Virus record (IMG/VR): IMGVR_UViG_3300044701_000724
Span: 1-35,796 of that record
Reading direction: 5' to 3' (one strand)
DNA: 35,796 nt
Source of the DNA: a virus
Shown: positions 5,377 to 35,796 of the stretch, piece after piece
Layout of the letters: every line of letters starts with the position of its first letter
How positions within the stretch are numbered: position 1 is the first letter of the stretch
Program-made: the position numbers and the translations under genes
The notes under the pieces: generated by a model
What the model was told of the DNA's origin: nothing
Databases searched by the model: none
Seen by the model: only the letters and a program-made list of their open reading frames with translations

Positions 5377-5972
5377 ATTTTAAATGCAGAGCAAGTGCCT
5401 TGGGTAAGTTAATGACTAACCCAAGGTCTAAGTCTGAGACTTTATCCCAGACTACAAAGAGCTACCTAGAAGAATGGGTAAAAGAGCAGATTTACGGAAT
5501 CAAGAAGCAGATTAATTCTAAGTACTTGCAGAAAGGATTGGCCCTAGAGGATCAGGCTATAGAGTTCTATTCTGTTGCTATGGATAAGGACTTCATGATT
5601 AAGAACCTAGACCACTTTGAAGATGATTTCTTCACGGGTACTCCCGACTGTATGCACGAGGGTATAGTCTATGACTTCAAGACCTCCTGGGACTGCTTTA
5701 CATTCCCTCTATTCGACCAAGAGCCTGACATGGGATACTACTATCAGCTTCAGGTGTATATGCACCTGACAGGGCTTAGAAAGGCTAAGCTAGTGTACAC
5801 GCTTCAGGATACACCTGACTATCTGACCCATGAGGAGCCTGTGAGCTACGCTCATGTGGATAACAGCTATAGAGTAAAAGAGTTTGAGATAGACTATGAT
5901 CCTATGGTAATTGAGACAGCCAAGGCTAGGATTCAAGAGTGTAGAGAGTATGTTAAAGAACTACTATCATGA
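5373..5972 (+). CDS. YqaJ/lambda-exonuclease-like recombination nuclease
   Basis: This 199-aa PD-(D/E)XK nuclease has GLALEDQAIEFY (about 55-66, first acidic residue), FTGTPDCM (87-94, metal-binding D) and YDFKTSW (99-105, the DxK catalytic strand). The later QLQVYMHLTG is the conserved Q-x-Y helix of YqaJ/RecB-type exonucleases. It should resect double-stranded ends to supply single strands to the ERF protein, with which it is translationally coupled (ATGA overlap). Confidence 0.9.
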   Translation: MNFKCRASALGKLMTNPRSKSETLSQTTKSYLEEWVKEQIYGIKKQINSKYLQKGLALEDQAIEFYSVAMDKDFMIKNLDHFEDDFFTGTPDCMHEGIVYDFKTSWDCFTFPLFDQEPDMGYYYQLQVYMHLTGLRKAKLVYTLQDTPDYLTHEEPVSYAHVDNSYRVKEFEIDYDPMVIETAKARIQECREYVKELLS

Positions 5973-21081: not shown

Positions 21082-23304
21082 TTAACTTCCTATTTCTTCT
21101 AATCTTGCTAATTCTAATCTCCAACTATTCGCCATTAAATCTACCTCCATTGCAACTACCATCCAATAGTACCCATCGTATTCGATGTTCTGATATGGCT
21201 TAATCTCCAATGGATTGGCAGCGTTTCTAGTCAATGTCAAAATCAATCTAGGGTTTTGCTTACCCTTGATGTTTGCTAACTCCTGAAGGAATATCTGAAT
21301 CAATGGTACTGATTCGACACCATCCCTAGACCAAGCCTGAGAATTTGGATACCCATATCCAACCAAGTCGAGCCGTATAGCACTGCTCGAGTTCTCTGTG
21401 TCAACATCACCGATTTTAAACTTGACATCGGGATATACGTTTGAGTACGATTCATCTGTTACAAATTTTTCTGATATTTCAGCAGTCGCAAAGGAATCAT
21501 TTTCCTCGATTTTAAGCGACATATTTCTATAGCCTACTGTGTACTTATCTACAGAAGCTGAGTTGGTTGTAATGGTCTGATATAGCCTGATAATGACATT
21601 GCCATCTTCAGGTACTACTACGTTAGTAATATCTAGCTTATTCCAAGCATACATTGATCCCATAGGGAACTGCATGATTGTAAAAGTATTTGTCCATGTA
21701 AACACGTCAACCCCATCAAATGATAGGTAGCTAGATCCGATGTTTATCAAAACTCCTGCAAACGTGTTTGGTCTTGGTAAATCTCCACTAAATCTTGGCT
21801 CAAAGATAAACTCAATTTGAAAGCTTAATGTATTAGCCAAGTCCTGAGCAATAGGAATGGCTTGACCTGTTCTTGTAGTATCAAGCTCTATAAATGACAA
21901 ATAAGTGTCAGCAGTTCCACTTACAGCAGAAGTTCCCCATATTTTACAATACTCACCTAAAGCATCAGCAACATACTGAATCCTTGCAGGGTTAATTCCT
22001 GTAGGATAAGATGCAGGCTGACCACTAGGAATAGCACTAATGTAGTTCCAAACTCTAAGCTGATAAACGCCTGGATATGCACTTCCTGGTAAATTAAACT
22101 CCCAAGAATCTACAGAAAATGGCTCCTCATAGATACCTCCACGAGCTGAGTAATCTAATACACCAAGCTCTAGCGTTCCTGTAAACTCGGTGTAAACAGG
22201 TCTGCCTGTACGCTGTCCTGCTGTAAACTTGCAGGAGACATCCATCCCAGGAGTTATGGTAGTAATACCCTCTCTAGTAGCGTCTGTGTTGTAGTTAAAT
22301 AGCCTGTAACTATCCTTGGCTAACTCAGGCAAAGAAATGATGTAAAACTCATTCTTCCACAAGAATACTCTGCAAAGAAATGGTTTTAGCAATGCCTCTA
22401 AGAACTCTGAAATATAAACAGATGTGTTCTCAGTAATGCCATTACTTGAAAGATACAAAGGTATCTCACCATCTGTAAACACAGCATTGGAAGGAATTAG
22501 TAGCTGTTCAAATACACCATCGTTAGTATCAAGCCTAGTCTCGTAAATCTCACAAGCCATGTGGATTGGTCTTAGCAATGGAAATGTCTGACTCAATGCA
22601 CCAAAGAAACCACCAACAAATGTATTGCCTGAGAATCCATCGAAATACTGCTCGTTTACTCTCTTAGAATCAAAAGAGTTAAATCCATCAGAAGCTGTGA
22701 ACTCCATGACTTCTGTAATGCCTACCTCATTGATAGTTAAAGTAGAGTTGTTGATGTAGCCTTCCCAAAATAAGTCACCATCAATAAGCAACTTAACCTG
22801 CCACTTTCTATAGCCTCCTTCAAGAATTTCAAAGTATTCGTCACGGGTACCTACTAATCCAAAGTTCAAGAAACTTCTAACTATCGGCTCAATCTCATCA
22901 GCACCAAAGTTTCCCCATCGGAATTGAAAACCTGCTGTTTGTTTTTCAGTAGCAGCACCTATATACCCGTACTCATAAATCTCTAGTCTGATAAGTTGAA
23001 GAGACTGATCCTCAGTTTCAGAAAAGTACTTTAGTTCGTAATCTGTATCGCTAGGGGTAAAGGTACCTGTTAGATTAACCCTAAGTTTAACATCCCTTGA
23101 TGGCATGGTAAATGTCCAAGGGTTTGTGCCTGAAATTAAAAATCCATTATTTATGTCATAACCAATAAGGCTAAACCCTGAATCAAAGGTCCCTAGAATG
23201 GTTAAGCTAGTACCTTCCTCGTAGAATAGCTCAGGAGGATTACTATTGACAGTTATCGTACCTGTTCCGTTAACTATTGCCCAGCTGAATCTATATTGTG
23301 CCAT
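21082..23304 (-). CDS. Distal tail / baseplate protein
   Basis: This 740-aa protein is encoded between tape measure and fibre, the usual place for distal tail or hub proteins. Residues 1-85 look like an Ig/InlB-repeat-type domain (GTGTITVN...FTMPSRDVKLRV). Residues about 90-260 contain WQVKLLIDGDLFWEGYI, a segment seen in Bacteroidota phage tail proteins. The rest is beta-rich and could include carbohydrate-binding folds. One base separates it from the fibre gene. Role in attachment or tip assembly is inferred. Confidence 0.78.
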   Translation of the reverse strand: MAQYRFSWAIVNGTGTITVNSNPPELFYEEGTSLTILGTFDSGFSLIGYDINNGFLISGTNPWTFTMPSRDVKLRVNLTGTFTPSDTDYELKYFSETEDQSLQLIRLEIYEYGYIGAATEKQTAGFQFRWGNFGADEIEPIVRSFLNFGLVGTRDEYFEILEGGYRKWQVKLLIDGDLFWEGYINNSTLTINEVGITEVMEFTASDGFNSFDSKRVNEQYFDGFSGNTFVGGFFGALSQTFPLLRPIHMACEIYETRLDTNDGVFEQLLIPSNAVFTDGEIPLYLSSNGITENTSVYISEFLEALLKPFLCRVFLWKNEFYIISLPELAKDSYRLFNYNTDATREGITTITPGMDVSCKFTAGQRTGRPVYTEFTGTLELGVLDYSARGGIYEEPFSVDSWEFNLPGSAYPGVYQLRVWNYISAIPSGQPASYPTGINPARIQYVADALGEYCKIWGTSAVSGTADTYLSFIELDTTRTGQAIPIAQDLANTLSFQIEFIFEPRFSGDLPRPNTFAGVLINIGSSYLSFDGVDVFTWTNTFTIMQFPMGSMYAWNKLDITNVVVPEDGNVIIRLYQTITTNSASVDKYTVGYRNMSLKIEENDSFATAEISEKFVTDESYSNVYPDVKFKIGDVDTENSSSAIRLDLVGYGYPNSQAWSRDGVESVPLIQIFLQELANIKGKQNPRLILTLTRNAANPLEIKPYQNIEYDGYYWMVVAMEVDLMANSWRLELARLEEIGS

Positions 23305-23337
23305 TGGTCAAAAATACGAAAAAAAATAAGGATTCTC

Positions 23338-23368
23338 TTGACTTAGAATTTTCAATCTAGTATTATTG
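23338..23368 (+). promoter_or_regulatory. Promoter of reversed mini-gene
   Basis: TTGACT at 23338-23343, a 17-bp spacer and TATTAT at 23361-23366 form a textbook -35/-10 pair. The extended TATTATTG (23361-23368) also differs from the Bacteroidota box TAnnTTTG by one base. The ATG follows 7 bases later, so the message would be leaderless or nearly so. Confidence 0.65.
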
Positions 23369-23375
23369 GGTCATA

Positions 23376-23546
23376 ATGAGACGAACACTAAACGAAAGCA
23401 GTACTATAATCGCTAAAACCATTGCTGAAATCAGGTCGCATGGTTCTGAGATAACAGAAGAATTAATTGAGAGAGCTTGCATCAACTACGAGATAGATGA
23501 AGATGTAGTCCGCAAGATTGCAGGATTTAAGAAAAGAGTAACATAG
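23376..23546 (+). CDS. 56-aa moron-like protein, opposite to tail operon
   Basis: MRRTLNESSTIIAKTIAEIR continues with ...SEITEELIERACINYEI and a basic end (RKIAGFKKRVT). It is predicted to be helical, possibly a small DNA- or protein-binding domain. It has its own promoter and intrinsic terminator and lies in reverse between the tape measure and distal tail genes, which are otherwise consecutive. This is the structure of a moron: a gene expressed independently of the late programme. No family recognised; anti-defence or superinfection functions are typical of such genes but not shown here. Confidence 0.65.
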   Translation: MRRTLNESSTIIAKTIAEIRSHGSEITEELIERACINYEIDEDVVRKIAGFKKRVT

Positions 23547-23572
23547 TTTTATTGGGTTTTGAGTTTGTAAAG

Positions 23573-23600
23573 ACCTTGGTTTATGACCAAGGTTTTTTTT
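23573..23600 (+). terminator. Intrinsic terminator of reversed mini-gene
   Basis: Perfect 8-bp arms ACCTTGGT / ACCAAGGT around TTATG, followed by T8 on the plus strand. On the minus strand there is no U-tract after the hairpin, so the tail operon should read through. The end overlaps the tape-measure stop codon. Confidence 0.9.
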
Positions 23601-25530
23601 ATCTCAATCCTCTTCTTATTTGAGCTTGCTCTACGAAGAATAGCAAGTCATCAGGACCTTTTAGTCTAATGTCTACCCCGTAGTTCGATGCCGCCATCGA
23701 AGCACCTGAGTAGTCCATAGATGGCAACTGAGGCACGATAATTCCATTGGTGTTAGGAACAAACAACTCAGGTCTACGTTCTCCTACAATGTAAGCTCTG
23801 CCCTTAGATACAGGACCACCAAATTCTCTTCTATTGGTGTAACTAGATCCTGTGCTAGAAGATACTGAACCTCCTCCTGAAGCTTTACCAAATGCAGAAC
23901 TAATTACAGCGACAGCTCCAGCTATCAATACAGGCAGTAACGCAAGACCTACAGGGCCTAATGATTCAGCAAATTTAGTTCCTTGCTTTATACCACTAGA
24001 TATTGATTCAGCTTTGTCTGTTGCTATGTTTGATGCAGCGGCTGCTTTATTTGCCGCAGATTGTTGAATAATTGCTGCAATAATTTTTGGAGTTGAAGAA
24101 AGTAATGTAGTTACAAAACCTCTTAATGCTCTATCTCCAATATCTAAGGAGGCAGCTATCCCTGCACCGAGAGAACTAAAAGCATCAACAATTATTTCTA
24201 AATTACTTTTTACTTGTTCTCCATTTACTGAAGCTAATTCATTTCTTAATTCAGAAAGTTTTAATTTATATTTTTCTAATTGACCAGGGTCACTAGTTAC
24301 TCTTTTTAAGGATTCATAAAGAGCTATTTCTTTTTCTAATCTCTCTACTATACCTGGGTCTTGTTTTCCAGGTAATTCTAAACCTTGTAATTGGGTTTCA
24401 TCAACTTCAATAGCTGGAGATTCTTCTATTGCCTTTTTTAAACCACCATACTTTTCAATTAATCTATCTAAATAATCTGTTTGTTTATCAGTTAATGCAG
24501 CTTGTAAATCAAAAAATGTTTCTGTTTCTTTTGTAGCTTCTTTTGTTACATCTTTATAAAATCCTAATTGCTGATTTACCTTTTCTAAAAGACCTCTATA
24601 TAAACCAATTTGTTCAGTTGCTAATGATTTCTCTAAAGCAGAATTAGAATTAGCAAAATCTCTAGTTGCAGTTGAAATCTGTTCTGTAAGAAATCTTTCT
24701 AATAACTCAAGTTCACCTTTTCTAAGTCTATTAATTTTACCTGACAAAGCGTCAACAACTTGACCTGCTGTTTCAAATGCAGGTACATCAATTAATTTAC
24801 CTCCAACATTTTCAGTCCTTAATAAACCTACATCTTTAAGTAATTTATTTAATAAATCTTGAGCCAATAAAGCATTGGTATCTTTAAGTGATTTATTAAA
24901 CTCTTCCTGTGCTTCTGTAAGTTCTTGTACAGGAGATTTTGTTTTCTCTGCATTAAGAGCATAGAAAGTTAATGCAGTAGTAACAGCAGACACTGCTAAA
25001 ATAGCAAGGTTAGCAGGAGTAATTAAACTGCTAAAAAAAGATTTCAAAGCAGCACCAGTACTTCCAGTAGTTGTTTTTAAAGCACTTAATTGTTCTGCAA
25101 ACTGCTGAATGTTGTTACCAACACCAATAATTCCAAACGGAGCATCCTGAATAATTCTATTAAATGCAATAGCTGATCCACTAGCTGCACCTGCTGATAC
25201 TCTAAACTTATCAAATGATTGAGTTGAAGTATTTGCAAAACTTTTACCTAAAGCATTAAGCCTCGCTAATTCAATGTTAGTTTGTTCAAGCTCTGCATTA
25301 AAAGAAGCAATCTGCTGCTCATTAGTAGCTTGAGAAAGCGAAACCTTTAACTGCTTCGCCTTAGCAGTAAGCTGTTCAATAAGACCTATCTTGCGTCTAA
25401 AACCGACATTTGATTTCTCAGAATCAGTAGAAGTTTCTGATTCAAATGACTTTAAAGTCTGCTTGGCCTTATTTATGGCAGATTGCAGTCCTTGAATATC
25501 GGCAGTTAGGCGTATCTGAAGTTCGTTCAT
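23599..25530 (-). CDS. Tail tape measure protein
   Basis: The 643-aa protein follows the tail chaperones and shows the usual make-up: a coiled-coil N-terminus (about 1-100), hydrophobic segments (LITPANLAILAVSAVTTALT near 170-190 and LALLPVLIAGAVAVI near 545) and a C-terminal GPVSKGRAYIVGERRPELFV, common in tape measures. Its length sets tail length; about 640 residues suggests a tail near 100 nm if the usual 1.5 Angstrom per residue holds. The middle of the gene is more AT-rich than its ends. Confidence 0.9.
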   Translation of the reverse strand: MNELQIRLTADIQGLQSAINKAKQTLKSFESETSTDSEKSNVGFRRKIGLIEQLTAKAKQLKVSLSQATNEQQIASFNAELEQTNIELARLNALGKSFANTSTQSFDKFRVSAGAASGSAIAFNRIIQDAPFGIIGVGNNIQQFAEQLSALKTTTGSTGAALKSFFSSLITPANLAILAVSAVTTALTFYALNAEKTKSPVQELTEAQEEFNKSLKDTNALLAQDLLNKLLKDVGLLRTENVGGKLIDVPAFETAGQVVDALSGKINRLRKGELELLERFLTEQISTATRDFANSNSALEKSLATEQIGLYRGLLEKVNQQLGFYKDVTKEATKETETFFDLQAALTDKQTDYLDRLIEKYGGLKKAIEESPAIEVDETQLQGLELPGKQDPGIVERLEKEIALYESLKRVTSDPGQLEKYKLKLSELRNELASVNGEQVKSNLEIIVDAFSSLGAGIAASLDIGDRALRGFVTTLLSSTPKIIAAIIQQSAANKAAAASNIATDKAESISSGIKQGTKFAESLGPVGLALLPVLIAGAVAVISSAFGKASGGGSVSSSTGSSYTNRREFGGPVSKGRAYIVGERRPELFVPNTNGIIVPQLPSMDYSGASMAASNYGVDIRLKGPDDLLFFVEQAQIRRGLR

Positions 25531-25542
25531 GACTCAAAAATA

Positions 25543-26768: not shown

Positions 26769-26799
26769 CAAAGGTAATAGAAAATATCAATTAATCAAA
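26769..26799 (-). promoter_or_regulatory. Consensus promoter for the major tail protein
   Basis: On the minus strand TTTG (26799-26796), a 19-bp spacer and TACCTTTG (26776-26769) match TTTG-N19-TAnnTTTG exactly. It starts inside the last codons of the preceding gene and lies 21 nt before the major tail ATG. Confidence 0.8.
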
Positions 26800-27213: not shown

Positions 27214-27232
27214 AGTCAAAGATAAGTTTTTT

Positions 27233-31818: not shown

Positions 31819-33009
31819 TCATAGAAGATGACTAATTGCCTTCCTTGTATCCTCTCCATGCTCAAACCTATAGTAGTGAAACAAGTATATACCTTTAGCG
31901 ATACCAATCCTTAATCTGTGTTGCATAACTTTCTTGCAGAAGTGGTAGTCAAAGAAATGCCCTTGTATCTGAATACCTCCCTCAGGGAATCCACCAACTT
32001 GCCTCCACATACTCTTAGGAAACAACATAAACAATCCACCAATCACCTGCTGTATCGGCATAATCTCGATTCCATGCTTGTTATATAGCTCCACAGCAAT
32101 CTTTCTGTGATTTAATATATTAGAATCGTTGCTCTTCCTTCCTCCTACTAGCTGATAGTGCAATCCCAATCGGTTAGTCATACAACCCACTAGATCAAAC
32201 TCTCCTGCTCTAGCTATGTCCTCACATTGCTGATAAATCTTCTCGTGATACATCGGTAGCGTGTCAATGTCCCTAAGACAAATCCAATCGTTCTCAGGTA
32301 GCGTTTCGATTATATCGTTTATAGCCTTTCCAATGTTCTTGTCTGATCTCCCAGGGGTGATGTGATGCACATTTACATTCTTCTTGTCCTCAAGCTGCTT
32401 CTTATGTGCCTTAACCTTAATGTATCGACTCTGCAATGACTGATGCTGAATGTTCTCCATCCGTGACTGCGTAACCCACATAGCAAACGGAACTGCTAAC
32501 TCATCAACAGCAGTATGCTCGTTAACAATATCCCACACCTTCTCCATCAACTTATTCTGCACATCGTTGCGATTCGAACGCACAAAGAAATTGTTGTGAT
32601 ACAATCCTCCCTTGTCGCTGAATCTTAACTCCATGTAGTACCTGATCTGCCTTTTAACCATGTCTAAATCAATAGACCTAGTCATGGCATACTGATAAAC
32701 ACTATTGTGCATTCTATGGGTAAACCATATCGGATTACTAGGAGGCTCTGCTATCAGCTTAACATTCCCATCAATGTAGCAGACCAAATCGTATTCACTT
32801 AGATACACATGAGATAAGAACTTATACTTCCTAGATTCCTTATGTAAATCTTTACCGCCTTCTACATAGCATATATTCCACCCATCAACATTCAACTTTA
32901 AATCATCGGTAAATACCACAAAGTCCCACCCCTCAAACTTAGGAGCAGGACTTATCTCATCATATCCTCCTAGAAGTACAGTATATACTACCTTCTTATT
33001 TCTCTCCAT
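31819..33009 (-). CDS. Two-domain glycosyltransferase (TOD1/DUF616-like plus GT-A)
   Basis: The 396-aa protein joins two transferase-like domains. Residues 1-190 match DUF616/TOD1-MUCI70: VVYTVLLGGYDEI (7-19), WDFVVFTDD (28-36), ESRKYKFLSHVYL (58-70) and YIDGN (78-82). Residues about 212-385 are a GT-A fold: NIGKAINDIIE, WICLRDID with the DxD at 247-249 and GGLFMLFPKSMWRQVGGF. It probably transfers sugars. It overlaps its upstream gene by 22 nt and belongs to a three-gene cassette between portal and protease. Confidence 0.82.
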   Translation of the reverse strand: MERNKKVVYTVLLGGYDEISPAPKFEGWDFVVFTDDLKLNVDGWNICYVEGGKDLHKESRKYKFLSHVYLSEYDLVCYIDGNVKLIAEPPSNPIWFTHRMHNSVYQYAMTRSIDLDMVKRQIRYYMELRFSDKGGLYHNNFFVRSNRNDVQNKLMEKVWDIVNEHTAVDELAVPFAMWVTQSRMENIQHQSLQSRYIKVKAHKKQLEDKKNVNVHHITPGRSDKNIGKAINDIIETLPENDWICLRDIDTLPMYHEKIYQQCEDIARAGEFDLVGCMTNRLGLHYQLVGGRKSNDSNILNHRKIAVELYNKHGIEIMPIQQVIGGLFMLFPKSMWRQVGGFPEGGIQIQGHFFDYHFCKKVMQHRLRIGIAKGIYLFHYYRFEHGEDTRKAISHLL

Positions 33010-33635
33010 GTTCTCTCATCGTAGAAATTTAAGTTCTTGTCAGTAGTGCCATATCCAAAGATACATTCCTCCTTGTTTGCAATTATTGCAGGGAATCTTT
33101 CAGTTAAATACTTGTCCAAAGTAAATTTCTTTAGCCTACTCTTAACCTTCTTTGTATCCATCCAATAAAACGATCCACTATAGTGGAAACTTTCAGGTAC
33201 ATAAGGAGGACAAGGCAACAGCTTACCAAGCACACCTGCAAATATCTTATCGCCAAGCGTAGGAACATTATCTAAATTCTTTCTATACAAGTGAGTAATC
33301 CATGTGTCTAATCCACGCCACATCGGCCGTGTAACACCTTTGCAATGACCATAGAATGTCATGCCTGAATCTATTTCTACCAAAGATTCTAAGAAGTGGT
33401 ATGCTTCTCCTGTTGTGCTGATATTTCTCACAACTCGATACTCGCAATCTTTAGGCAACATATCCACAATAGGTGCCAAACTATAGTTACCATCTACTGC
33501 TATCTTGACAATCCTTTGACCATCAAAGACCTTCCAATAAACCTCTAAGAGCTTTAGATTCAATACATGGTAATGTCCTAGCTTACCATTGTAGTAGATG
33601 AAATAGATTAAATTTTTTCTAGCATCAGAGTCCAT
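32988..33635 (-). CDS. Putative glycosyltransferase or glycan-modifying protein
   Basis: The 215-aa protein has LIYFIYYNGKLGHYHVLNL at its N-terminus, TFYGHCKGVTRPMWRGLDTW (about 93-112) and YSGSFYWMDTKKVKS (about 147-161). The H-KG-TR-W and GSFYW-x-T patterns resemble proteins encoded in polysaccharide gene clusters, including rhamnan-synthesis-F-like transferases (memory, weak). Lacking a clear DxD, its activity is uncertain. It overlaps both neighbours (28 and 22 nt), implying coupled expression with the methyltransferase and the larger transferase. Confidence 0.65.
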   Translation of the reverse strand: MDSDARKNLIYFIYYNGKLGHYHVLNLKLLEVYWKVFDGQRIVKIAVDGNYSLAPIVDMLPKDCEYRVVRNISTTGEAYHFLESLVEIDSGMTFYGHCKGVTRPMWRGLDTWITHLYRKNLDNVPTLGDKIFAGVLGKLLPCPPYVPESFHYSGSFYWMDTKKVKSRLKKFTLDKYLTERFPAIIANKEECIFGYGTTDKNLNFYDERTWREIRR

Positions 33636-34141
33636 CCTGTAGGTGTTTGTGGCTTCTCTAGTAATTTATACCCTAGACCATTCCAAAACTCAATCCACTC
33701 TGGTTCATCCTTAATGTTAATGTGTCCCCATGCCTCATCATTTGGCGTTTTATGAGGAGTAGAACTGAATACTATCAATCGTGGCTCTATAAAATCCACA
33801 GCCTTAAAAATCTCATCATCAGTCATGTGTTCTGCAACCTCAATAAACAACATCAAGTCAGCAACCTTTGGTCTAGCAATCACCTTTAACTCAGGATATT
33901 CCTTCTTGCAGTAGTCCCTGTGACTCTTAAACACATCCAAGGCCATAATATCATATCCATGCTGACGCATTACCTCAGAATAAACTCCTGTGCCACATCC
34001 GTAGTCAATTACATTCTCTGCGTTAAACTTCTTGCAGTACTCCGCAACACTAGTAGCTAGGTTTACAAACGCTACATTATGCATAGTCAAGTTCATATCC
34101 TCGACCTCTGCTCTTAGAAACTCTTCTTCCGTTATTATCAT
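33608..34141 (-). CDS. SAM-dependent class I methyltransferase
   Basis: At 177 aa, motif I is VIDYGCGTGVYSE (44-56), motif II ends with an acidic D69 (ALDV), and FIEVAEHM (motif IV region) with GHINIKDEPEWIEFW follows, the layout of small-molecule or sugar methyltransferases (methyltransf_23-like). There is no DNA-methylase NPPY or PCQ. Neighbouring transferases suggest it methylates a glycan; protein or small-molecule substrates are not excluded. ATGA overlap with the 62-aa gene. Confidence 0.85.
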   Translation of the reverse strand: MIITEEEFLRAEVEDMNLTMHNVAFVNLATSVAEYCKKFNAENVIDYGCGTGVYSEVMRQHGYDIMALDVFKSHRDYCKKEYPELKVIARPKVADLMLFIEVAEHMTDDEIFKAVDFIEPRLIVFSSTPHKTPNDEAWGHINIKDEPEWIEFWNGLGYKLLEKPQTPTGWTLMLEKI

Positions 34142-34326: not shown

Positions 34327-35689
34327 CTTCCGTGTCTATTCTGTCTATGTTTTCTGTTTCTAAATCAGTTCCTCGCATATCACTCAACGGCATATAGTTC
34401 GTAGGTACCAACACCTGAGTCTCATCTACCAATGTTCCATATCCTAGAGCTTCTCTAATCTCATCCTGACTGAATACCATTGCCTGACGCATCCAATGTA
34501 CCAACTCCTTCTTATCACCTTCCAATTCAGGATAAACGTCAGTGTCTGACATCACAACCAAGGTGTTGTCATTATACCATTCTCTAGCCATCTTAGTCCA
34601 CACATCATCCATCTTTCTCAACAATGGCAATACGCAGTTAGTCACAACTCTAGTGTCACCTGTCTCACTATTTGCCAATGTTCCCTGCGGAGTCAACAAC
34701 TGAGACGGGTATCCGTAGATATTAGCAATCTGTCTCTCCAAGTCCTGATTAAAGTCCAAGATACCCATGTCCACAGGACTCAAGCCTATCTGCACCCACT
34801 TCAGGTCACTAGGAGTCACAACAATGTCTCCTGCGTTATGCGCACCCATGTGGTTCTGTCTGAACGAATCGTTAATCGCTACAGCCTGCTCGGCAGTCAA
34901 CTCTGACTGATCTGCGTGTCTAGCGTTACCACTAACAATACCGCTAGGACCCATGTTAGCAAACAACGACCCTTGAGCTACATCTGCAAATCTCTTTTGA
35001 GAAATTACATTCAAGCTACTTCTTAGTGGACTCAACCCCCAGAACGTACTCTCGTATCCTTGCCACTCAGAAACAGGGTTAAAGTACTTAAAATGTGCTA
35101 TCTGCTCTCTAGGGATGATATTCTCAAAGTTATATGTAATCGCATACCCTGCCAACGGCTGTGTTCTTTCTCCTGACATTACAGGCTTCACAGTCGGACT
35201 CGGCACACTCCACAACTCTACAGGCTGCTTAGCTCGTAATCCAACCCCAGGCACGCTCGCATACACAATCGCATTCCCTGTAATCAACAGATACCCTGCA
35301 ACCTCTTCTCTCAGCTGTCTGCCTGTGCTAGTCGGGTTCGGCTTATCCATCAGCTCCAAGAACGGATGCTGCTCAATAGATTCAAACGCCTTAACTCTAA
35401 GCTTAGCCAACTCCGTAGCATTCTCCTTGTTCTTCAAGTACTTCTTCTTAGCAAAGTACTTCTCTGCAAATCGCTTGTCCTTGACCTTATACAACATCAC
35501 AGGAGCATCAGCAGACTTCTCTACAATCTTAGAAACCACAGACTGTACTACAGGGATACTCTTATACGCCTTATCTATAAATATGCTGTCTTTTGCATCG
35601 TAAGGCATCCAAACCCCCTTTATATACTGCCATTGCAACGCCTGTGGTAAGCCTAGCTCCTTAGTTCTAAATGCCTTGAGAAGATTCAT
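34295..35689 (-). CDS. HK97-family portal protein
   Basis: The 464-aa protein forms the dodecameric DNA gate. KSIPVVQSVVSKIVEKSADA (43-62) is the usual first core helix, then PFLELMDKPNPTSTGRQLRE, GYLLITGNAIVYA, and EQIAHFKYFNPVSEWQGYES with GLSPLRSSLNVIS, all typical of HK97 gp3-like portals. The acidic tail DEDEDEDIDQEL is notable. It starts at the contig end; its first 20 bases are repeated at 1-20. Upstream by 32 nt in the circle is terL. Confidence 0.95.
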   Translation of the reverse strand: MNLLKAFRTKELGLPQALQWQYIKGVWMPYDAKDSIFIDKAYKSIPVVQSVVSKIVEKSADAPVMLYKVKDKRFAEKYFAKKKYLKNKENATELAKLRVKAFESIEQHPFLELMDKPNPTSTGRQLREEVAGYLLITGNAIVYASVPGVGLRAKQPVELWSVPSPTVKPVMSGERTQPLAGYAITYNFENIIPREQIAHFKYFNPVSEWQGYESTFWGLSPLRSSLNVISQKRFADVAQGSLFANMGPSGIVSGNARHADQSELTAEQAVAINDSFRQNHMGAHNAGDIVVTPSDLKWVQIGLSPVDMGILDFNQDLERQIANIYGYPSQLLTPQGTLANSETGDTRVVTNCVLPLLRKMDDVWTKMAREWYNDNTLVVMSDTDVYPELEGDKKELVHWMRQAMVFSQDEIREALGYGTLVDETQVLVPTNYMPLSDMRGTDLETENIDRIDTEDEDEDIDQEL

Positions 35690-35796
35690 CTATTTCTATT
35701 TTATTTGTAAAAGTACAAATTTTACCTAAATAATTTCCCCCTTATCAGCACAAACCCCTCACCCTTCTTTTTCACCATCAACTCAGTCAATCCCCA
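35670..35796. repeat. Right copy of 127-bp terminal direct repeat
   Basis: Identical to 1-127; see the left copy. In a circular map these two copies are one. Confidence 0.95.
35722..35796 (-). CDS. terL: Partial second copy of terL 3' end
   Basis: These are the last 25 codons of terL repeated by the terminal overlap and cut by the contig end. It is not a separate gene; the full gene is at 53-1288. Confidence 0.93.
   Translation of the reverse strand, partial: WGLTELMVKKKGEGFVLIRGKLFR

Follow-up and report, generated by a model that had tools for sequence, protein, structure and literature searches.

The window analysed here, the whole 35,796-nucleotide stretch of IMG/VR record IMGVR_UViG_3300044701_000724, carries a 56-aa ORF that runs against the tail genes between the tape measure and the distal tail gene, and comparison with related contigs identifies this ORF as a real gene with its own conserved promoter and terminator (Table 1). 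In our preferred reading, to which we assign a probability of roughly 40%, it encodes a cytoplasmic regulator-type or host-directed, moron-like accessory protein, made while the late genes are silent and almost fixed in one group of flavobacterial siphophages.

The best annotated matches of the portal protein are Cellulophaga phages, and the tape measure matches Flavobacterium phage 11b and Cellulophaga phage phi10:1; the host is therefore probably a flavobacterium. Positions 1-127 and 35670-35796 are identical over 127 bp, so the window is probably a complete, circularly closed genome. Searches for a tyrosine integrase, a serine resolvase and an HTH_3 domain returned no match; the phage is probably virulent, which leaves room for other routes to lysogeny. 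Among the head genes, on the minus strand, lie glycosyltransferase-like and methyltransferase-like genes (31819-33009 and 33608-34141), and in Cellulophaga phage phi18:1 genes for a methylase and a glycosyltransferase are similarly placed behind the portal gene.

Table 1. Features at the junction of the tape-measure and distal tail genes (positions in the window unless a contig is named).
Feature	Position	Strand	Support
Distal tail gene, 740 aa, divergent from the small gene	21082-23304	-	Beside the tape measure in all relatives read; function assigned by position
-7 box of the distal gene, TATTTTTG, head-to-head with the small-gene promoter	23309-23316	-	Identical in 16/16 distinct upstream sequences
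-33 element TTG, within CTTGACTTA	23338-23340	+	Kept in all 16 distinct upstream sequences; spacer varies
-7 element TATTATTG	23361-23368	+	5/6 consensus bases of TAnnTTTG
Small reversed gene, 56-aa ORF	23376-23546	+	Intact homologues at this site in 33 other contigs; dN/dS 0.07-0.22
Intrinsic terminator, 8-bp stem, 5-nt loop, T8	23573-23600	+	Scan match; covariation among relatives
Tape-measure-like gene, 643 aa, convergent with the small gene	23599-25530	-	PHROGs tape-measure families, best E 7.4e-6
Unrelated reversed 86-aa ORF	L061, 6659-6919	-	Behind a TATATTTG box; single contig

Layout and conservation of the small gene

The ORF starts with ATG and ends with TAG. Its ATG lies 9 nt past TATTAT (23361-23366) and 7 nt past the TTG that ends at 23368, and the 17-bp spacing between TTGACT (23338-23343) and TATTAT agrees with the original prediction, as does the terminator with its perfect 8-bp stem (23573-23580/23586-23593) and T8 (23593-23600). 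All parts of the self-contained reversed mini-gene proposed there, promoter, 56-codon ORF and terminator, are thus present. Taken singly, however, such elements do not rise above chance: scanning the window gave 26 sigma-70-like sites against 27.8 expected, and 9 terminators against 5.6. Their combination, scored as a TTG/TAnnnTTG promoter, a near ATG, 40-150 codons and an 8-bp terminator, was found a single time in the window and in none of 300 shuffles. It is the comparative data on relatives, selection, promoter and terminator that establish the gene.

A protein search of IMG/VR with the small protein returned 13 loci and a profile search 35, with identities across both searches of 57-100%. 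Further contigs were collected via the flanking tail genes, so that presence of the ORF was not presupposed; those matched by short or weak similarity to the tape-measure C-terminus (L066-L104) offer no comparable junction. The comparison of the junction for presence or absence, named beforehand as a check, found the reversed ORF intact in 33 of the 36 other IMG/VR contigs readable there, with a constant 71 bp from its ATG to that of the distal gene in all 33. Far from being absent or broken in every close relative, the ORF stands. Contig L044 has lost it cleanly from start to stop while retaining promoter and terminator, and in L040 an 11-bp deletion after codon 3 shifts the frame. In the third exception, L061, identity in the distal protein is 29% and the junction is occupied by an 86-aa ORF, also reversed but unrelated; a family match for that ORF was looked for and none was found, and a search for more members of this type returned L061 itself as the sole one. 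Because of the two independent natural losses and the different reversed ORF in L061, the comparison marks the gene as dispensable and the site as variable.

Variable sites in the ORF fall mostly at third codon positions, and pooled Nei-Gojobori dN/dS values of 0.22 in the window's clade, 0.07 in a second clade and 0.18 between the clades indicate that the ORF is under purifying selection.

Promoter and terminator

The upstream boxes had been described as a -35/-10 promoter. The boxes are indeed there, but a Bacteroidota -33/-7 type fits better than the E. coli type; the latter was rejected, as the second clade shows TAGATTTG and has no TATAAT-like hexamer of equal fit. The flavobacterial sigma-A consensus is TTTG/TAnnTTTG (TAHHTTTG in F. 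johnsoniae), in which G stands at -5 and transcription starts 4-5 nt further on (PMC6847099). All 16 distinct upstream sequences share a TTG-N20 spacing to the -7 box, which fits a -33 TTG/TTTG about 19-20 bp upstream. Across the same 16 sequences, TA and TTG of the -7 box are invariant, and the boxes are conserved whereas the spacer and the leader are not. The box of the window's clade has an A at -8 and matches the consensus imperfectly, and that of the second clade has 6/6 consensus bases but a G at -10, which is rare in F. johnsoniae. The small-gene promoter is accordingly better read as a putative Bacteroidota sigma-A (ABfr) type, with a match that is good yet imperfect in both clades. 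A TAGA-N8-TCTA palindrome in the promoter spacer was considered as an operator and discarded, the spacer being unconserved in the second clade.

When TTG-N20-TATTATTG is read in this way, and the start site is positioned from the published consensus (PMC6847099), transcription is predicted to begin at about 23373-23374, which would leave a leader of 2-3 nt and a nearly leaderless mRNA. Leaderless transcripts make up 5.5% of the mapped mRNAs in F. psychrophilum (PMC9723704).

At the other end of the gene, the T8 of the terminator overlaps the tape-measure stop codon. Changes on both sides that preserve pairing occur at 4 of the 8 stem pairs among the relatives, two of the four in the ORF-less L044, these being counts from related sequences and not independent events. 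The empty unit of L044 (about 5617-5746) persists with its promoter boxes and a terminator carrying two compensatory pair changes. Because the minus strand of the terminator lacks a T-run, tail transcripts would be expected to read antisense across the small gene.

The tail-gene junction

The small gene had been placed inside the tail operon. It does lie reversed between tape measure and distal gene, but a single operon is doubtful, since the distal gene has a conserved -7 box of its own, a perfect one 4 nt before its ATG. The junction therefore looks, from its sequence, like a boundary between two tail transcription units with their promoters head-to-head. Counterparts of the distal-gene box precede the distal genes of L061 and of phage 11b. 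Perfect -7 boxes (TAHHTTTG) also occur elsewhere on the minus strand. Those at 25535-25542, 23309-23316, 27217-27224 and 26769-26776 precede late genes: the likely ATGs of the tape-measure, distal and tail terminator genes follow 3-5 nt after their boxes, and the major tail gene follows at a distance of about 20 nt. The tape-measure box overlaps the end of the gene upstream. Just 7 of 681 minus-strand ATGs have a perfect box 2-15 nt upstream. The late operon may contain several internal, nearly leaderless promoters.

In other flavophages the junction either has no gap or holds two small ORFs in the same orientation or a reversed ORF unrelated to the present one. Flavobacterium phage 11b resembles the window in having a gap between the tape measure and a remotely similar distal gene (hhalign E 2.8e-6, probability 88%) with its own -7 box TATATTTG; unlike the window, it lacks a reversed gene there and has two small ORFs on the strand of the tail genes (L125, 6763-7445), one of which probably encodes a membrane segment. 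After these two ORFs, immediately ahead of the distal-gene box, comes a hairpin with a T-run. In phages phi18:1 and phi10:1 the tape measure and the next tail gene abut, without insert and without a -7 box, the site being equated by gene order and a weak distal-gene match (hhalign E 1.9e-5 and 1.8e-4, probabilities 78 and 49%). Phage phi18:1 shares a related portal and has two reversed small genes, gp46 and gp47, but these lie within the head genes, and 2 bp separate its tape measure from the tail gene that follows. The distal gene itself varies: in L124 (4615-7692) about 285 aa are inserted in frame behind codon 176, a repetitive-looking stretch with repeated YGNG..V and W motifs and perhaps an added binding domain.

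The 56-aa protein

The protein had been said to belong to no recognised family, and no significant family was found in the libraries searched. None of the 24 members matched an HTH family in Pfam, PHROGs or NCBIfam, and weak Pfam leads to PqqD and Sp-DndD (best E 0.01-0.02) fell under the cut-off and were not believed. A profile search of PDB sequences gave nothing below E 0.2 and the viral fold library nothing below E 0.5; no homologue was confirmed in a one-per-species collection of bacterial and archaeal genomes or among annotated phages. PADLOC, a library that covers defence and not anti-defence proteins, had no match for it either. No transmembrane segment is predicted (highest 19-residue hydropathy 0.14-0.22), and the protein has a net charge of about 0, whereas small DNA binders usually carry a strong positive charge.

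The structure search proposed with the original prediction was carried out on two AlphaFold2 models, of lead sequences from different clades. Both show three helices (about 5-20, 28-38 and 42-49 or 42-54), with mean pLDDT of 70 and 81. Their PDB structure matches are almost all homeodomains, the best with Z = 6.8 (r.m.s.d. 2.2, 50 aligned residues) and Z = 5.8 (r.m.s.d. 2.4, 49 aligned), values below the tool's trust level. The search thus yielded homeodomain-like top matches, but weak ones, with Z below 7 and Foldseek E-values above 0.5 for both models, and the HTH-like fold suggested by the models is a lead and not a finding.

Comparison with known morons

An own promoter and terminator, as expected of a moron, are indicated by the conserved boxes and the covarying terminator. 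Loss or replacement in relatives is seen in L044, L040, L061, phi18:1 and phi10:1, though the gene is near-fixed in close relatives and the distal-gene homology to the Cellulophaga phages is weak. Base composition does not deviate, the ORF having 38.0% GC against 39.3% for the window (36th percentile). The term moron, as first applied, consequently suits the layout and the variability of the site at long range, but sits less well with near-fixation, ordinary GC and the lack of an integrase, resolvase or HTH_3 match. Given that lack, expression from a prophage is not an obvious role.

The closest parallel is pid of phage P22, an 86-aa ORFan moron in the late region, transcribed against its neighbours and provided with a Shine-Dalgarno sequence and a Rho-independent terminator; it is seen in the carrier state, where it derepresses the host dgo genes, and not in strict lytic or lysogenic growth (PMC3573128). 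Like the small gene, pid is an orphan, reversed in the late region and followed by a terminator, and in relatives its site is vacant or has other content; the likeness is one of layout. P22 is temperate, however, and pid has its Shine-Dalgarno sequence, whereas the present gene belongs to a probably virulent flavophage, has a nearly leaderless start, is near-fixed and is ordinary in composition. STMMW_20121 of the Salmonella prophage ST64B likewise has its own promoter and lies antisense to lytic genes, a layout called typical of accessory loci (PMC7067206). This too is a likeness of layout, with no relationship claimed, and STMMW_20121 differs in being a prophage-expressed candidate accessory gene. 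The reversed-moron layout is thus already known; the protein family is without match in the libraries searched.

Discussion

Under the preferred reading, the host's own sigma-A polymerase would transcribe the small gene as soon as, or for as long as, late transcription is low. Translation of the nearly leaderless mRNA would yield a 56-aa cytoplasmic three-helix, HTH-like protein that would act on transcription, in the host cell or in the phage, and late tail transcription, running antisense across the gene, would then turn it down. In its working the protein would resemble P22 Pid, whose small gene, reversed in the late region, is expressed outside the lytic programme of late genes. Several observations are consistent with this: an ORF conserved in 33 of 36 contigs, always in the same orientation and at the same spacing; purifying selection; boxes conserved without their spacer, and a covarying terminator; the lack of a transmembrane segment; three helices in two models with homeodomain-like top matches; no integrase, resolvase or HTH_3 match; and the pid precedent. 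The two losses, the L061 ORF and the missing insert in phi18:1 and phi10:1 point to a dispensable gene at a variable site. Against it stand the weak HTH matches and a net charge near 0, a -7 box that is imperfect in either clade of a gene whose transcription is itself inferred, and near-fixation, which suggests a role more central than that of a typical accessory gene.

Ranked next, and possible though less likely, is a role in counter-defence or host takeover, in which the protein would be made early by host polymerase and would disable a host protein, for example a defence enzyme, without binding DNA. A small, soluble protein of no family, dispensable in two lineages, behind a host-type promoter and confined to one phage group would suit such a role, but anti-defence genes usually vary among close relatives whereas this one is near-fixed, and it resembles no known family and has no match in the defence-only PADLOC library.

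We consider it rather improbable that the protein is a local regulator, binding the 71-bp region between the two ATGs and timing the distal tail gene and itself. The head-to-head promoters with their well conserved upstream stretch and the HTH-like model would agree with this; on the other hand, the region has no conserved palindrome or operator and a spacer that changes from clade to clade, and L044 retains the distal gene without the ORF. Similarly doubtful is a wider proposal, namely that the junction is a dedicated flavophage cargo slot whose divergent promoter pair would drive small genes away from the tail genes, and only when late transcription is off, for instance in a carrier state of a virulent phage.

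Two further explanations are very unlikely. The transcript might be the main product, either as a short RNA or as a transcription unit with an antisense or insulating role, given that L044 has lost the whole ORF but neither promoter box, and that the two outer pairs of its terminator have changed in a compensatory way; all other lineages, however, show strong codon-level constraint, no Rfam match was found, and L044 is one contig and maybe a recent loss. The superinfection-exclusion moron first suggested, taken here as a membrane protein, draws on the self-contained layout adjoining the tape measure, where lambdoid phages are reported to carry morons such as HK97 gp15, but is made unlikely by the low 19-residue hydropathy maximum and the lack of a predicted transmembrane segment in a phage with probably no lysogeny.

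Returning to the regulator-type accessory protein that we favour, the small gene adds a protein family, without a match in the libraries searched, that is conserved across about 35 uncultured phage contigs, and it indicates that the reversed-moron layout of temperate enterobacterial phages can be near-fixed in probably virulent phages of Bacteroidota. The layout suggests that late antisense transcription silences the gene; if so, the promoter of the small gene would readily serve to report flavobacterial infections that are early or in the carrier state. If the junction does serve as a cargo slot, the small protein would be a marker of the carrier state in Bacteroidota phages.
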